From positions 62,001 through 126,000 of the forward strand of contig NZ_MPIN01000002.1 of the NCBI RefSeq assembly GCF_001887355.1: DNA of 64,000 nucleotides. Reading direction: 5' to 3'. The translations under genes were made by a program, and so were the position numbers. The notes beneath the pieces were generated by a model. It searched no databases. It was not told the origin of the DNA and saw only the letters and a list, made by a program, of their open reading frames with translations. Shown one piece after another: positions 22,402-28,432 of this stretch (the first letter of the stretch is position 1; every line of letters starts with the position of its first letter). The stretch is from Cystobacter ferrugineus. Lineage in GTDB: Bacteria; Myxococcota; Myxococcia; Myxococcales; Myxococcaceae.

Positions 22402-22525
22402 AAACAGCTCATTCCCCCAGCGTCATCACAACTGAAAACCACGGCACTCCATCCGCATGTCACCGCCAAGGCGTGGACAGGGACTTCGCCTCGAAACTCC
22501 TTCTCGACCCAGAAACGAACGACCC

Positions 22526-23593
22526 ATGAAAAACAACACGTCCGTCCGCGATCTCCATCCCACGTTCCTCGGCCTGAGTTCGGCGTTCCCGAAGAACGCC
22601 TATCTCCAGAAGGATCTCTACGAAACGTTCGGCAAGCAGATGTACGGGGACATCGCCGCGCTCGAGCGCATCATCCGCCGCGTCCGCGTGAAGCGCCGCT
22701 ACCTGGCGCTGGACCCGAACGAGGTGCTGGGGCGCAAGGTCGGGCTCGGTGAGCGCATGGCCATCTTCGAGCGGGAAGTGCTGGAGGTGGGAGGCCGCTC
22801 GCTGGAGGCGGTGCTGCGCAAGGTGGATCGCGAGACCATTGGCAGCTTCGTCATGGCCAGCAGCACCGGCTACATCGCGCCCACGCCGGACCTGCTCCTG
22901 GCGAGGCAGCACCACCTGCCCTCCCGGCTGCGCCGCACCTTCGTGGGCAACATGGCCTGCAACGGAGGGATGAACGCGCTCAACGTCGCCCTGGACAGCC
23001 TCCTGGCGCGCCCGGACGAGCGCGTGCTCCTCAACTGCACCGAGTTCAGCTCGCTCCACGTCCGCCCCGAGGAGTCGAGCCGCGAGCAGGTCGTCGTCCA
23101 CGCGCTCTTCGCCGATGCCAGTGCCTCCACCGTGATGAGCATGGAGCCGCCGGGTGTGGGGCCCCAGGTGCTGGACTTCACCTCCACGCACCTCTACGAC
23201 GCGGTCGACTTGATGACGTGGCGCCTGGTGGACGAGGGCTTCCGGATGACGCTCTCACCCGAAGTGCCCGGCCTCATCGGTGAGCACATCGACTCGCTCA
23301 TCGGGACACTCACCGCGAGGGCCGGGCTGAGCACCAGTGACATCAAGCACTGGGCCATCCACCCGGGTGGGCCGAAGATCGTGGAAGTCATTGGCCAGAA
23401 GTACGGGCTGACCGACACCCAGCTCCGCTCCACCTGGCACATCCTCGAGGAGTACGGCAACTGCTCCTCGGCCACCGTCTTCCTCGTCCTGGAGGACATG
23501 ATCGCCCAGGACAAGCCTCTGCCGGGTGAGTACGGCGTGATGCTCGCCTTCGGCCCCGGGTTGACGATGGAAGGGGCGCTGCTGCGCTTCTGA
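22526..23593 (+). CDS. Type III polyketide synthase (chalcone/stilbene synthase family)
   Basis: A 355-residue type III PKS. The catalytic triad is recognisable: Cys in FVGNMACNGGMNAL (about residue 154), His in HWAIHPGGPKIVE (about 291), and Asn in EYGNCSSATVFLVLED (about 324). The C-terminal GYG-like loop appears as GPGLTMEGALL. These enzymes extend a CoA starter with malonyl-CoA to pyrones, resorcinols or flaviolin-type products; the product cannot be predicted here. ATG 22526 was chosen; residues upstream look non-coding. The 3' end abuts the truncated kinase gene, which runs antisense across the last 400 bases. Confidence 0.9.
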   Translation: MKNNTSVRDLHPTFLGLSSAFPKNAYLQKDLYETFGKQMYGDIAALERIIRRVRVKRRYLALDPNEVLGRKVGLGERMAIFEREVLEVGGRSLEAVLRKVDRETIGSFVMASSTGYIAPTPDLLLARQHHLPSRLRRTFVGNMACNGGMNALNVALDSLLARPDERVLLNCTEFSSLHVRPEESSREQVVVHALFADASASTVMSMEPPGVGPQVLDFTSTHLYDAVDLMTWRLVDEGFRMTLSPEVPGLIGEHIDSLIGTLTARAGLSTSDIKHWAIHPGGPKIVEVIGQKYGLTDTQLRSTWHILEEYGNCSSATVFLVLEDMIAQDKPLPGEYGVMLAFGPGLTMEGALLRF

Positions 23594-25893
23594 GCGCCCC
23601 CGCGGCGAGGCGTCATGGCCATGTCGAGCGTCTCGCGCCACGAGCCCACCTCCCGTGCATCCAGGGCCCGCTGGAAGTAGCCCACGGCGGCCTCGTCGTC
23701 AGCGGTCTTCTGCGCGAGGACTCCCAGGTTGTGCAACGCGTTGGCCGTCTCCATGTGGTGCGGCCCCAGCGTCTTCGCATAAAGCGCCTGCGCGTGTGAC
23801 AGCGCCTCGCGCGCCTCCAGGAGCCGTCCGGCCTTGGTGAGCGCCGCCCCGAGGTTGTTGTAGGCCGCCGCCACCTCCGGGTGTTCGGTGGAGTAGACCT
23901 TCTGGCGCAGCGCCACCACCTGGCGGAAGTCATCCAGCGCCTCGGCCGTCTTGTCCTCGCGCATGGAGATAGCACCCAGGGCGTTGATGATCATGGCCTC
24001 GACACGCGCGTTCCCGCCCATGCGCTCCAGCACGGCGCGGGTGTGCTCCGCCCACTCGCGGCCCTGCTCGTAATGAGACTGGAGCATCGCCAAGCGCACC
24101 AGCCGGGCCCAGGCAGAGGCGAGCACCTCGTCGTGGCGGCCTGCCTCCGCGGCCCATACCGCCCGATGGAGCGAAGACTCCGAGGCCTTCAGGTCCCCGA
24201 CCTTCTCCTCCAGGGCGCCGCGCAGCTCGAGCACCTCGGCCTGCAAGGGGCGATAGCGCAGGGCCAGAGCCTCGTCGGCTACCTCACGCGTGCGCGCCAG
24301 GGCCGGCTCGAACTGGCCGCTGTCGAAGAGGGCCCGAGCCTCCGCGAGCCGTGCCCGGAGCCGCTCCACCTCGTGCTGGGTGGCCGCGTCCTCCGGCGGC
24401 CGGACGGTAGCGCGCAACACCTGCACATTGGCGCAACCCCCGAGGGGCGGCAGTGCATGGGCAGCCTTGGCCGCCTCATCCACCAAGGAGGCATCCGCAT
24501 GGGCATAGAGGTCGGTGAGAGCGCGCAGCGATTGCAGCCGCCGATCCAGACACTCCATACGAAGGGAGAGCACCTCATCGGACTGCTCCCCGCGCACGCG
24601 CGTGGCCTCGCACGCCTCGACATGCATGGCCACCCAGTCGCGCGCATAGGTGTCCAATACACCCGCGGTACGGGCCCAGGACTCCTCCGCGCTGGGATTG
24701 CCAGTGGCCAGGAAGGACCGACCGAGAGCCTTCTTGCGAACGCCATCCCACAGCCCCACCAAGCGCCGGGCACCACCACGACACAGAGGCTCGGTGGGCA
24801 GAGGGCGAAGCAGGGACGGCATCACGACCAGCAAGACCAGCATCGCCACCATGGCCCCCGTACGCAGCCATACCCAATGTTTCTGGGGAGAGTCCTCCAG
24901 CGCCGCGATCAACTCCGACATGGAGGCCGGGCGTTGCTGGGGATCGGCCTTCAACCCCCACAATACCGTGCGAGTCACCCACTCCGGCACGTTGGATTGA
25001 GCAGGAGGCGCTCTGATCTGGCCATCGAGCTGGGCGCGGGTGAGTTCGGCGATGTTGGTGGCGCTGAAGGGCAACTGCCCATAAAGAGACTGGTAGAGAG
25101 CCACGCAGAAGGAAAACAGATCACTCCGAGAGTCGGCGGCCTTGCCCAACAACTGTTCGGGAGCCATGTACGCGGGCGTGCCGATGAGCGTGCCCGGCAC
25201 GGTGAGCCCACTGGCCCAGACATCCACCGAGGTGGGGGCCGGAGCCGCGTGCTCCTGGTCGAGTGAAGACCCCGCTCGTGCCAGCCCGAAATCCGTCACC
25301 CGCACCCTCCCATCCTTTCCCACCAGGACGTTGTGCGGCTTGAAGTCGCGGTGGACGATCCCCGACGCGTGCGCCGCGGCAAGCCCCCGGCCGGCGGCCA
25401 GATAGGCCATCAGGATCTCGCGCCACGTGCGAGGCTGCTGTTCACACCATTGCAGCAGCGTCTGCCCCTCCACCATCTCCATGGCGATGAAGAGCGAGCC
25501 TTCCGGAAGGTTGACCGCGTCGTAGATGGCCACCACGTTGGGGTGATTGAGCCGAGCCATGGCCTGGGCCTCACGCACCATGCGGGCCTCGAGCTGGGGC
25601 ACGCTGGGCACCGACCCGTGACGCAACAACTTGAGGGCCACGCGCCGCTCCAACCGCGAGTCATAAGCGGCGAGCACCACCCCCATCCCGCCTTGTCCGA
25701 GCAGCTCCAATACGGTGTAGCGGCCCGCCAGCGGAGGACCGCCCGGCGACAATGAAAGACCAGGGGGCACGGCCTCCTCCATACCGGGTCGAGGCACACC
25801 GGGTTGTCCGCACGTAAGGGTCCTCTCCGAGAGCCTGGCGTCGTCGGGGGAACCCTTCTGCTCCACCTCATCCATGTGCGCGCGTCCAGTCAC
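23194..25893 (-). CDS. Ser/Thr protein kinase with TPRs, C-terminus truncated and run on
   Basis: Open for 899 codons. Residues 58-320 form a eukaryotic-like kinase: glycine loop GQGGMG at 66-71, Lys88 in VALKLL, HRDFKPHN from 181, DFGLA at 201, APE in MAPEQLL. A transmembrane helix (about 341-356) links it to a helical and TPR sensor region (AYNNLGAALTKAGRLLEAREA, ANALHNLGVLAQK). TPR similarity stops near 23610, and the frame then continues antisense through the type III PKS gene to 23194; those roughly 135 residues look artificial. So the natural C-terminus is probably lost by a rearrangement at the PKS end. The start is GTG 25893, with AGGAGG five bases upstream. Confidence 0.8.
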   Translation of the reverse strand: MTGRAHMDEVEQKGSPDDARLSERTLTCGQPGVPRPGMEEAVPPGLSLSPGGPPLAGRYTVLELLGQGGMGVVLAAYDSRLERRVALKLLRHGSVPSVPQLEARMVREAQAMARLNHPNVVAIYDAVNLPEGSLFIAMEMVEGQTLLQWCEQQPRTWREILMAYLAAGRGLAAAHASGIVHRDFKPHNVLVGKDGRVRVTDFGLARAGSSLDQEHAAPAPTSVDVWASGLTVPGTLIGTPAYMAPEQLLGKAADSRSDLFSFCVALYQSLYGQLPFSATNIAELTRAQLDGQIRAPPAQSNVPEWVTRTVLWGLKADPQQRPASMSELIAALEDSPQKHWVWLRTGAMVAMLVLLVVMPSLLRPLPTEPLCRGGARRLVGLWDGVRKKALGRSFLATGNPSAEESWARTAGVLDTYARDWVAMHVEACEATRVRGEQSDEVLSLRMECLDRRLQSLRALTDLYAHADASLVDEAAKAAHALPPLGGCANVQVLRATVRPPEDAATQHEVERLRARLAEARALFDSGQFEPALARTREVADEALALRYRPLQAEVLELRGALEEKVGDLKASESSLHRAVWAAEAGRHDEVLASAWARLVRLAMLQSHYEQGREWAEHTRAVLERMGGNARVEAMIINALGAISMREDKTAEALDDFRQVVALRQKVYSTEHPEVAAAYNNLGAALTKAGRLLEAREALSHAQALYAKTLGPHHMETANALHNLGVLAQKTADDEAAVGYFQRALDAREVGSWRETLDMAMTPRRGGAQKRSSAPSIVNPGPKASITPYSPGRGLSWAIMSSRTRKTVAEEQLPYSSRMCQVERSWVSVSPYFWPMTSTIFGPPGWMAQCLMSLVLSPALAVSVPMSESMCSPMRPGTSGESVIRKPSSTRRHVIKSTAS

Positions 25894-26130: not shown

Positions 26131-27702
26131 TCAGGCCGCCTCGCGCGTCCTCGCCGCGAGCTGGGGCTGCCCGGCCGTGGCGGGCTTCGTCGCGCGAAAG
26201 AACTCCATCGTGCCATCTTCGATCCTGCCGAAGCGCAGCGTGAGCAGATCGAGCGCGTAGTTCTGATAGAGCCGCCACGGCCGCTTCGAGCCCTGCTTCG
26301 GCATCAGCCCGAGCGCCCGCTGGACGTAGCCCGACGAGAAGTCCATGAAGGGCTGCTCCTCGACCGAGGCGTCGCGGCGCGGCGTGCAGTGCGTGTAGCC
26401 ATGCCGCTGCATGTGATTGAGCAGCCGGCAGACATACTCGAAGGTGAGGTCCACCTTCAGCGTCCACGACGCATTGGTGTAGCCGAACGCGAGGGCGAGG
26501 TTCGGCACGTCGCTGAGCATCATGCCCTTGTAGGTGAGGCACTTCGACAGGTCGGGCCGCTCGCCGTCGATGCTGAGCTCGATGTCGCCGAGCAGTTGCA
26601 GCTTGAGACCCGTGGCGGTCACGATGACATCCGCCTCGAGCTGCTGGCCGGAGCGCAGTGAGATGCCCTTCTCGGTGAACGTCTCGATGTGATCGGTGAC
26701 GACCGAGGCACGGCCCTGATTGAGTGCGTTGAACAGGTCCGCGTCCGGGACGAGACAGATGCGTTGATCCCACGGATTGTAGCTGGGCGTGAAGTGGGTC
26801 GAGACATCGTAGCCGGGGCCCAGTTGCTCACGCACCAGGTCGATGAGGCGCCGGCTGGCCCACTGGGGCCACTTGCGCACCAACTTGTAGGAGACGATGC
26901 CGCCGAGCACGTTCCTCCAGCGCGTGAGCGCGTAGGCGAGCTTCGCCGGCAGAAGGCGGCGAAACACGTTGGCGAGGCGATCCTCGGCCGGGCGCGAGAC
27001 GACATACGTCGGCGAGCGCTGCAGCATGGTGACGTGCGCGGCCTTCTTCGCCATCTCGGGCACGAGGGTGACCGCCGTCGCGCCACTGCCAATCACCACG
27101 ACGCGCTTGTTCTCGTAGTCCAACGACTCCGGCCAGAACTGCGGATGGACGATGCGGCCCTGGAAGCGCTCCTCCCCGGGAAACTCGGGCCGGTGGCCCT
27201 CGGCATAGTTGTAGTAGCCGCTGCACATGAGCAGGAAGTCGCAGGTGTAACGCACGAGCTCCTTGCCGGGCCCACGCTCGGCCTCCACCGTCCAGCGCGC
27301 CTCCTTCGAGGACCACGAGGCCCTCTTGACGTGGTGCTGGAAGCGGATGTGCCGCTCAATCCCATTCTCGCGTGCCGTCTCCCGCACGTAGCGCAGGATG
27401 GACGGTCCGTCGGCGATCGCCTTCGCCTCGACCCACGGCCGGAACGCATAGCCCAGCGTGTGCATGTCCGAGTCCGAGCGGATGCCCGGGTAGCGGAACA
27501 AATCCCACGTCCCGCCAATCGCCTCGCGCCCCTCGAGGATCACATAGCTCTTGCCCGGACACCTGGACTGCAGGTGATAGGCCGCGCCGATACCCGACAG
27601 CCCGGCGCCCACGATGAGCACGTCATGGTGCTCCACCCAGGCCTCCGTCCTCGCGGCCAGGCCGCCCGACGTGTGTTCGCTCAGGTCCGCGCGGCCAGTC
27701 AT
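26131..27702 (-). CDS. Flavin-containing / Baeyer-Villiger-type monooxygenase
   Basis: A 523-residue class B flavoprotein monooxygenase. The FAD motif VLIVGAGLSGIGAAYHL is near residue 30, GGTWDLFRYPGIRSDSDMHT follows, the BVMO fingerprint FQGRIVHPQFW is near 180, and the NADPH motif VVIGSGATAVTLV near 200. Such enzymes insert oxygen into ketones or oxygenate heteroatoms. ATG 27702 follows GGGAGATCCTC. It is divergent from a TetR regulator, with two palindromic operators in the 82-bp gap, so induction by its substrate is likely. Confidence 0.9.
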   Translation of the reverse strand: MTGRADLSEHTSGGLAARTEAWVEHHDVLIVGAGLSGIGAAYHLQSRCPGKSYVILEGREAIGGTWDLFRYPGIRSDSDMHTLGYAFRPWVEAKAIADGPSILRYVRETARENGIERHIRFQHHVKRASWSSKEARWTVEAERGPGKELVRYTCDFLLMCSGYYNYAEGHRPEFPGEERFQGRIVHPQFWPESLDYENKRVVVIGSGATAVTLVPEMAKKAAHVTMLQRSPTYVVSRPAEDRLANVFRRLLPAKLAYALTRWRNVLGGIVSYKLVRKWPQWASRRLIDLVREQLGPGYDVSTHFTPSYNPWDQRICLVPDADLFNALNQGRASVVTDHIETFTEKGISLRSGQQLEADVIVTATGLKLQLLGDIELSIDGERPDLSKCLTYKGMMLSDVPNLALAFGYTNASWTLKVDLTFEYVCRLLNHMQRHGYTHCTPRRDASVEEQPFMDFSSGYVQRALGLMPKQGSKRPWRLYQNYALDLLTLRFGRIEDGTMEFFRATKPATAGQPQLAARTREAA

Positions 27703-27727
27703 GAGGATCTCCCGTGCTCGAAAAAAG

Positions 27728-27745
27728 TGACACCGCTCATTGTCA
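27728..27745. promoter_or_regulatory. TetR operator candidate, site A (TGACA-N8-TGTCA)
   Basis: A perfect inverted repeat with 5-bp arms TGACA (27728-27732) and TGTCA (27741-27745). It lies between the divergent monooxygenase and TetR genes. A second site of identical arms and spacing is centred 27 bp away, which makes chance unlikely. Confidence 0.65.
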
Positions 27746-27754
27746 ATTTGTATC

Positions 27755-27772
27755 TGACAACGAGTCATGTCA
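27755..27772. promoter_or_regulatory. TetR operator candidate, site B (TGACA-N8-TGTCA)
   Basis: Same architecture as site A: TGACA at 27755-27759 and TGTCA at 27768-27772. It sits just upstream of the TetR start (27785), so occupancy should repress the regulator itself. Confidence 0.65.
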
Positions 27773-27784
27773 ATAGGTGGTCTC

Positions 27785-28432
27785 ATGTCCTCCATGGTCG
27801 ACCGACGACTCTATCGCGGCTCCTCCGCCGAGGAGCGCCGGGCGCAGCGGCGCGAACAGTTCCTCGAAGCAGCCATCCGTGTCTATGGCGAGCAGGGGTA
27901 TCGCCATGCGACGGTGAAGGCCGTCTGTGAGGCGGCCGGGCTGACCGAGCGCTACTTCTACGAGTCATTCTCCAATAGCGAGGAGTTGCTCGTCGCCTCG
28001 TTCCAGGCCGTGACGGACTTCCTCCTGGAAGAATTGGAGAAGGCCAGTGCCAGCGCCTCGGGAGACGCCATCGAGCGCACCCGCACGATGCTCCAGGCCT
28101 ACTACGAGGCGCTCAAGGACAGTCCCCAATCGGCGCGGGTCTTCCTCGTGGAGATCTCGGGAGTGAGCCCCGAGGTGGACCGAGCCTTCGTCGCCGCCCT
28201 CGAGGCCTTTGGCGCGCTGCTCGCCCGGACGATCTCACCGCACGAGGGGGGCGGCACGACGGACGACCCCCTGCTGCGCGCGGGTGTGGTCGGCGGCGTG
28301 CTCCATATCGCCTTGAATTGGATCCTGGGTGGCTACACGCGGCCCATTCGTGAGGTGGTCAACGCCGCCCTGCGCCTGTGTCTCGTGCTCGCGCCTGGAG
28401 GCAGGAACCCAACGCGTGGGAGAAGCGTTTGA
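27785..28432 (+). CDS. TetR/AcrR-family transcriptional regulator
   Basis: A 215-residue TetR protein. The N-terminal helix-turn-helix is clear: RREQFLEAAIRVYGEQGYRHATVKAVCEAAGLTERYFYESFSN in order, with the YFYESF motif closing the DNA-binding domain; the rest is the ligand-binding helical domain. It is divergent from the monooxygenase and probably controls it and itself through the paired palindromes at 27728-27772. ATG 27785 follows AGGTGG; an upstream ATG at 27767 would lie inside operator site B. Confidence 0.88.
   Translation: MSSMVDRRLYRGSSAEERRAQRREQFLEAAIRVYGEQGYRHATVKAVCEAAGLTERYFYESFSNSEELLVASFQAVTDFLLEELEKASASASGDAIERTRTMLQAYYEALKDSPQSARVFLVEISGVSPEVDRAFVAALEAFGALLARTISPHEGGGTTDDPLLRAGVVGGVLHIALNWILGGYTRPIREVVNAALRLCLVLAPGGRNPTRGRSV

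Follow-up and report, generated by a model that had tools for sequence, protein, structure and literature searches.

Two copies of one palindrome, TGACA-N8-TGTCA, lie in the 82-bp gap (27703-27784) between the divergent genes for a flavin monooxygenase and a TetR-family regulator in the 64,000-nucleotide stretch of Cystobacter ferrugineus DNA analyzed here (hereafter, the window), and the question raised by this locus is which protein the two palindromes serve and what they do between these genes. The first-pass annotation described two exact palindromes with the same arms and spacing placed 27 bp apart, and letter-for-letter matches are present at 27728-27745 (site A, the monooxygenase-proximal putative operator, TGACACCGCTCATTGTCA) and at 27755-27772 (site B, the TetR-proximal putative operator, TGACAACGAGTCATGTCA); the designation of both as putative operators draws on these letter matches together with their conservation upstream of TetR relatives. 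All arms of the two sites are identical, the internal spacer is 8 bases in both, and the distance is 27 bp both start to start and center to center. Sites A and B are separated by 9 bp (27746-27754; 7 to 33 bp among the two-site loci compared), the whole A+B element takes up 45 of the 82 intergenic bases, and 12 bp separate site B from the TetR start. The term "tandem", which had also been applied to the pair, needs qualifying: sites A and B match slightly better in reverse complement (14 of 18 positions) than directly (12 of 18). The 45-bp element is loosely dyad-symmetric (at 30 of its 45 positions), and the inner flank across 62 two-site rows (a count that includes one duplicate row and admits weaker pairs) reads TTGTCA at site A (T in 84%) and TGACAA at site B (A in 90%). 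The two sites are placed as a loose mirror rather than as a plain tandem.

No sigma-70-like promoter was recognized by a sigma-70 scan, and the overlap of the sites with the divergent promoters is therefore argued from space alone. Promoter assignment by consensus was accordingly dropped. AT-rich, -10-like letters adjoin the outer arms of the sites; as promoter elements these are only suggestive.

The proposed owner of the sites is the TetR-family regulator, a 215-aa protein encoded on the forward strand (27785-28432) and classified by both Pfam TetR_N (PF00440; 38.6 bits, cut-off 24) and fold. Its AlphaFold2 model (mean pLDDT 85.8) contains nine helices in an all-helical, standard TetR fold, and the fold matches listed for this model are all TetR-family entries. 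The top Foldseek matches were FadR and FasR, several of them solved with acyl-CoA, at 19-22% identity, and a second aligner placed FadR, EthR2/Rv0078, FasR, MtrR and EthR in a near tie at Z scores of about 16-19 (EthR at Z about 16-17 with 16-17% identity). A phmmer search against the PDB returned 53 sequences at E ≤ 0.001, including 5icj (EthR2) and none named EthR; the best sequence match was Mce3R (E = 1.1e-13), with two matched stretches. Among NCBIfam models, FasR (NF053731) was the best match by E-value at 55.9 bits, as compared to an equivalog cut-off of 330 bits, and Bacillus FadR (NF053878) scored 51.7 bits against a cut-off of 200. A shared fold by itself shows no ligand; our best guess from the structural model is a ligand that would be long and hydrophobic or acyl-CoA-like. 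A palindromic candidate operator beside the regulator's own gene, which is a trait of the TetR family, is apparent here from sequence and conservation.

The putative divergent target is a flavin monooxygenase of 523 aa encoded on the reverse strand (26131-27702; Pfam FMO-like, 64.8 bits, cut-off 22). Type I Baeyer-Villiger monooxygenases are characterized by the motif FXGXXXHXXXW(P/D) (PMC10604202). The protein contains this motif as FQGRIVHPQFWP (residues 180-191; 27130-27165, reverse strand) as well as two Rossmann motifs of the form GxGxx[GA] (GAGLSG at residue 32 and GSGATA at residue 205), the combination that defines type I Baeyer-Villiger enzymes by sequence. Of 57 relatives with 50% identity or more, 28 show the strict motif; in several of the 57 the histidine is replaced by Q, L, V or Y, in others the last position is T, and these variants may carry out different chemistries.

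The first-pass annotation had treated the absence of the palindromes upstream of orthologous gene pairs as evidence that would count against it, and conservation was assessed in two samples. The first combined 96 genomes of the window's family, 10 of which contained a TetR match at E ≤ 1e-25 (own genome included), with a collection scan that supplied the best 80 of 560 relatives, retrieved by peptide patterns that included ERYFYESF; one Archangium duplicate (L009 = L015, same contig) was dropped, and 89 distinct loci, including the window, were compared. Of these 89 loci, 80 carried one or more exact sites in the interval from -160 to +10 relative to the TetR start, and 50 carried two or more, figures that include the best 80 of 560 relatives; the other nine loci had no exact site. 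The same 89 loci contained 130 exact sites in the 15.1 kb upstream of TetR as compared to 2 in the remaining 807 kb. An internal spacer of 8 accounts for all 130 sites; the next most frequent spacer, 15, occurred 10 times, and no other spacer between 0 and 20 was seen more than twice. The second sample came from a whole-protein search of two proteobacterial families, with matches at E ≤ 1e-15 in 6 of 149 and 15 of 145 genomes; it was not drawn by peptide pattern, and some of its loci were already in the first sample. Here, an exact site was found in 19 of 21 loci (all but L151 and L152) and two sites in 9 of 21. In 58 of the 89 loci of the first sample, the divergent gene encodes a monooxygenase with 50% identity or more, and all 58 showed a site at ≤ 1 mismatch (two sites in 45). 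Overall, these comparisons lend strong support to the earlier proposal that the sites are operators of the adjacent TetR, common to both divergent genes, and the palindromes are very probably docking sites of this regulator.

The distribution of the sites among loci with other enzymes and with other regulators separates the two candidate partners. Five more of the 89 loci have a divergent monooxygenase of less than 50% identity, all with an exact site, and in one locus the monooxygenase lies elsewhere in the locus. No monooxygenase was found in the remaining 25 loci (one of which, L070, covers only 173 bp upstream, so that its partner is unseen); an exact site was nevertheless present in 17 of these and a site at ≤ 1 mismatch in 21. 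The monooxygenase was therefore ruled out as owner of the site. Other divergent open reading frames, named by eye, include short-chain dehydrogenases (e.g., L077, L081 and L088) and GMC-like oxidoreductases (L091 and L094), and the annotated partners are a P450 at L105 and a short-chain dehydrogenase at L104.

On the regulator side, the recognition-helix stretch LTERYFYESF (residues 53-62; 27941-27970, forward strand) shows no variation across the 24 sequences of alignment A1. As the patterns used for the collection scan included ERYFYESF, helix invariance in that scan is inflated and partly built in; in the second sample, LTERYFYESF was found in 19 of 21 proteins, with one MTERYFYESF and one LTERYFYESY. 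Among distant relatives, [LM]TERYFYESF occurs together with an exact site in Acinetobacter L104 (33%), Rhodococcus L105 (35%), L159 (31%) and L160 (34%). Conversely, three loci with a changed helix (L103, L106 and L107) showed no site at ≤ 1 mismatch; for Burkholderia L103, which has a monooxygenase of 59% identity in the locus, and Rhodococcus L106, where the monooxygenase is 27% identical, this applies to the whole stretch examined. Distant Myxococcota relatives with other helices (24 weaker than E = 1e-25, 20 of them with a locus) likewise had no site at ≤ 1 mismatch within 250 bp; full upstream DNA was available for 18 of these 20, with none for L126 and only 68 bp for L130. Four loci (L035, L043, L044 and L045) combine an unchanged recognition helix with no site even at 1 mismatch. 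On these comparisons of sequence, it is the recognition helix of the regulator, and not the enzyme, that the site accompanies.

Three Massilia loci among these four retain one TGTCAAAAT half beside the start, and the start of L045 may be misplaced.

The same association was examined in the converse direction by searching whole genomes for the exact double site (gap of 4-30) in 92 genomes of the window's family and 145 plus 149 proteobacterial genomes (386 in total). An exact double site was found in 18 of the 386 genomes and lay beside a TetR relative in 16 of the 18: all 8 cases in the 92 genomes of the window's family were at TetR, and in the two proteobacterial families, with 5 cases in 145 and 5 in 149 genomes, 4 and 4 were ≤ 100 bp from a TetR match. 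The reversed control pattern was found in 0, 2 and 0 genomes of the three groups (2 of 386). The two genomes without this neighborhood were G259, in which no TetR match reached E ≤ 1e-15, and G426 (double site at G426:C58:103768-103823), whose TetR relative (31% identity) is carried by a different contig and has one exact site of its own; the double site in G426 is a possible second target in distant members. In 19 proteobacterial genomes, hand-picked through the 80 collection-scan loci with L077 left out, 11 had one double site, of which 10 were at TetR and 1 (the L074 genome) was about 5.5 kb away. Exact single sites in these 19 genomes numbered 1-7 per genome as compared to 0-16 for the reversed control, i.e., no excess.

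The exact double site away from the TetR promoter in the L074 genome (L112, G096:C188:3555-3599; also L074) has 27-bp spacing, and an amidohydrolase-like open reading frame, named by eye, lies about 640 bp from it; this is possibly a second target in a Sphingorhabdus MAG.

Under the base composition of the window, about 2.4 exact sites would be expected by chance in the 12.05-Mb genome, and the expected number of second exact sites within 60 bp of any other is about 3e-5. Four exact sites were observed in the own genome, 2 of them in the gap, as compared to 1 for the pattern read backwards. Copies with ≤ 2 mismatches showed no excess in the window (8 observed, 14.4 expected). The genome search for further TGACA-N8-TGTCA sites, which had been proposed as a check, thus returned 2 more exact sites, but neither points to a second target. 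One is inside a long open reading frame. The other (L004 1501-1518, C9:283510; TTGACAAAAAAAGTTGTCAA) lies immediately before an ArsR-like HTH gene, and of the 12 genomes that have the ArsR-like gene (own genome included), 5 keep this palindrome, its inner letters being the same or similar. As 3 of those 5 genomes (G003, G039 and G041) have no match to TetR, the L004 palindrome looks like a site belonging to the ArsR-like gene itself, which on this pattern of conservation it probably is. A larger regulon in the own genome was rejected on the strength of these two locations, and no second target is evident there when exact arms are required.

The same loci also bear on the start of the TetR gene. 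An ATG at 27767-27769, inside site B, is in frame with TetR, and the first-pass annotation had favored a start at 27785 over it. Among the 85 loci with a site at ≤ 1 mismatch, an ATG falls within the TetR-proximal site in 44, but only 6 of these ATGs are both in frame and open, those of the window and its two closest relatives among them; the internal ATG was thus judged an unlikely start. In 44 of the 85 loci, the commonest arrangement, the first in-frame start lies 9-12 bp past the site. The sequence AGGTGG (27775-27780, forward strand) is a likely ribosome-binding site for the start at 27785, and AGGAG occurs at the corresponding place in 4 of the 8 nearest relatives (L006, L008, L011 and L012). 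These observations agree with the start at 27785.

We consider it highly probable, from the sequence comparisons, that both sites serve as operators for the neighboring TetR, whose dimers would repress both divergent genes until released by a hydrophobic ligand. One TetR dimer would occupy each of the two sites; dimers on A and B would most likely block both divergent promoters, and TetR would thus repress the monooxygenase as well as itself. Release would be by a small hydrophobic ligand, plausibly the monooxygenase substrate or a fatty acyl-CoA-like metabolite. We infer binding, repression, autoregulation and the ligand class. Repression, in particular, is inferred because the gap is tight and because all five divergent TetRs with gaps < 200 bp that were tested in PMC3511530 repressed the neighboring gene.

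The palindromes could instead be sites of another regulator acting at the same promoter, with the adjacent TetR a bystander, and the four same-helix loci without a site and the three exact double sites that do not lie beside TetR (in G426, G259 and the L074 genome) fit such an arrangement. However, 16 of the 18 double sites in 386 genomes stand beside TetR, and the presence of the site varies with the recognition helix of TetR whichever enzyme is the partner, which makes a bystander role very unlikely. That the regulator is an activator, or activates as well as represses in the manner of its close structural neighbor FasR, instead of being a pure repressor, also appears unlikely: FasR is among the top fold matches, and the best NCBIfam match by E-value is named for FasR as a "transcriptional activator", with a score far below its cut-off, but the placement of the sites in the middle of the 82-bp gap, with so little room between site B and the TetR start, is typical of steric repression, and the five tested short-gap TetRs were all repressors.

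A variant of the preferred explanation, in which the two sites are the operators of the adjacent TetR but act independently (A on the enzyme gene, B on the regulator gene) without interaction between dimers, is a serious contender, at somewhat less than an even chance. Of the 58 loci with two sites, 34 have them 27 bp apart, and the remaining spacings are 25 (2 loci), 28 (1), 29 (2), 30 (3), 31 (2), 32 (9), 34 (2), 39 (2) and 51 bp (1). With 10.5 bp per DNA helical turn, these spacings span very different faces, and opposite-face geometry is thus not a rule. The suggestion that two dimers bind near-opposite faces at 27 bp fits the window and the commonest spacing but is not conserved across the relatives, in which spacing varies; a fixed helical face as a rule was rejected. 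The range of 25 to 51 bp without a single helical phase favors independent sites, as does the retention of a single exact site in many loci, at the A position in many Massilia and at the B position in L050 and L142. On the other hand, a spacing of 27 bp clearly predominates and is found from Myxococcota to Gammaproteobacteria, which could reflect either cooperation between dimers or a shared promoter geometry.

With the adjacent TetR as the preferred owner of both sites, the layout can be compared to known systems. The monooxygenase is presumably similar to EthA. In the tetR-tetA system, two palindromic operators lie in the 81-bp gap between divergent genes and the dimer represses both (PMC3511530). 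The locus described here resembles TetR/tetO in being a divergent pair with two palindromes in a short gap, but differs in that the target is a monooxygenase rather than an efflux pump and in that the operators are 18-bp sites of another sequence. The EthR-EthA pair of mycobacteria consists of a divergent TetR and a type I Baeyer-Villiger monooxygenase separated by a 75-bp gap (PMC3511530, PMC5403819 and PMC10604202), and binding of EthR to its operator is cooperative and involves an octamer (PMC5403819). The likeness to EthR-EthA lies in the divergent pairing of a TetR with a Baeyer-Villiger-type monooxygenase; unlike EthR, the regulator here faces two discrete perfect palindromes. The acyl-CoA-binding TetR regulators FadR of Bacillus and FasR of M. 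tuberculosis are similar in fold, whereas the NCBIfam scores fall far below the respective equivalog cut-offs, and the operators of FadR and FasR differ from TGACA-N8-TGTCA. Mce3R of M. tuberculosis is a 406-residue chain with two TetR-like stretches, as compared to the single 215-aa protein encoded here. No description of a TGACA-N8-TGTCA operator was found among the matches listed in the open-access literature, and one may exist elsewhere. The layout is thus of a known kind (TetR/tetO and, functionally, EthR/EthA) and the mechanism is ordinary, while the operator is unusually clear and widely conserved.

Conservation of this kind provides a predicted operator, regulator and target for a widespread TetR group and is strong enough to predict targets in the genomes that carry it. 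Identifying the ligand would give a lead on what many related Baeyer-Villiger-type monooxygenases act on in nature, and the paired sites form a compact candidate promoter part for a biosensor. We tentatively suggest, as a reading that may well prove too broad, that one undescribed TetR group with a single recognition code ([LM]TERYFYESF / TGACA-N8-TGTCA) spans Myxococcota, Alpha-, Beta- and Gammaproteobacteria and an actinobacterial plasmid, that its ligands belong to a single class of lipid-like metabolites, and that it has successively become linked to Baeyer-Villiger monooxygenases, short-chain dehydrogenases, other flavin oxidoreductases and a P450. If so, the sensor and not the enzyme would be the conserved part.

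Elsewhere in the window, a kinase/TPR-like open reading frame on the reverse strand (23194-25893) overlaps a type III polyketide synthase-like open reading frame on the forward strand (22457-23593) by about 400 bp in antisense, both named by eye; the end of the kinase/TPR-like frame may be frameshifted or changed.
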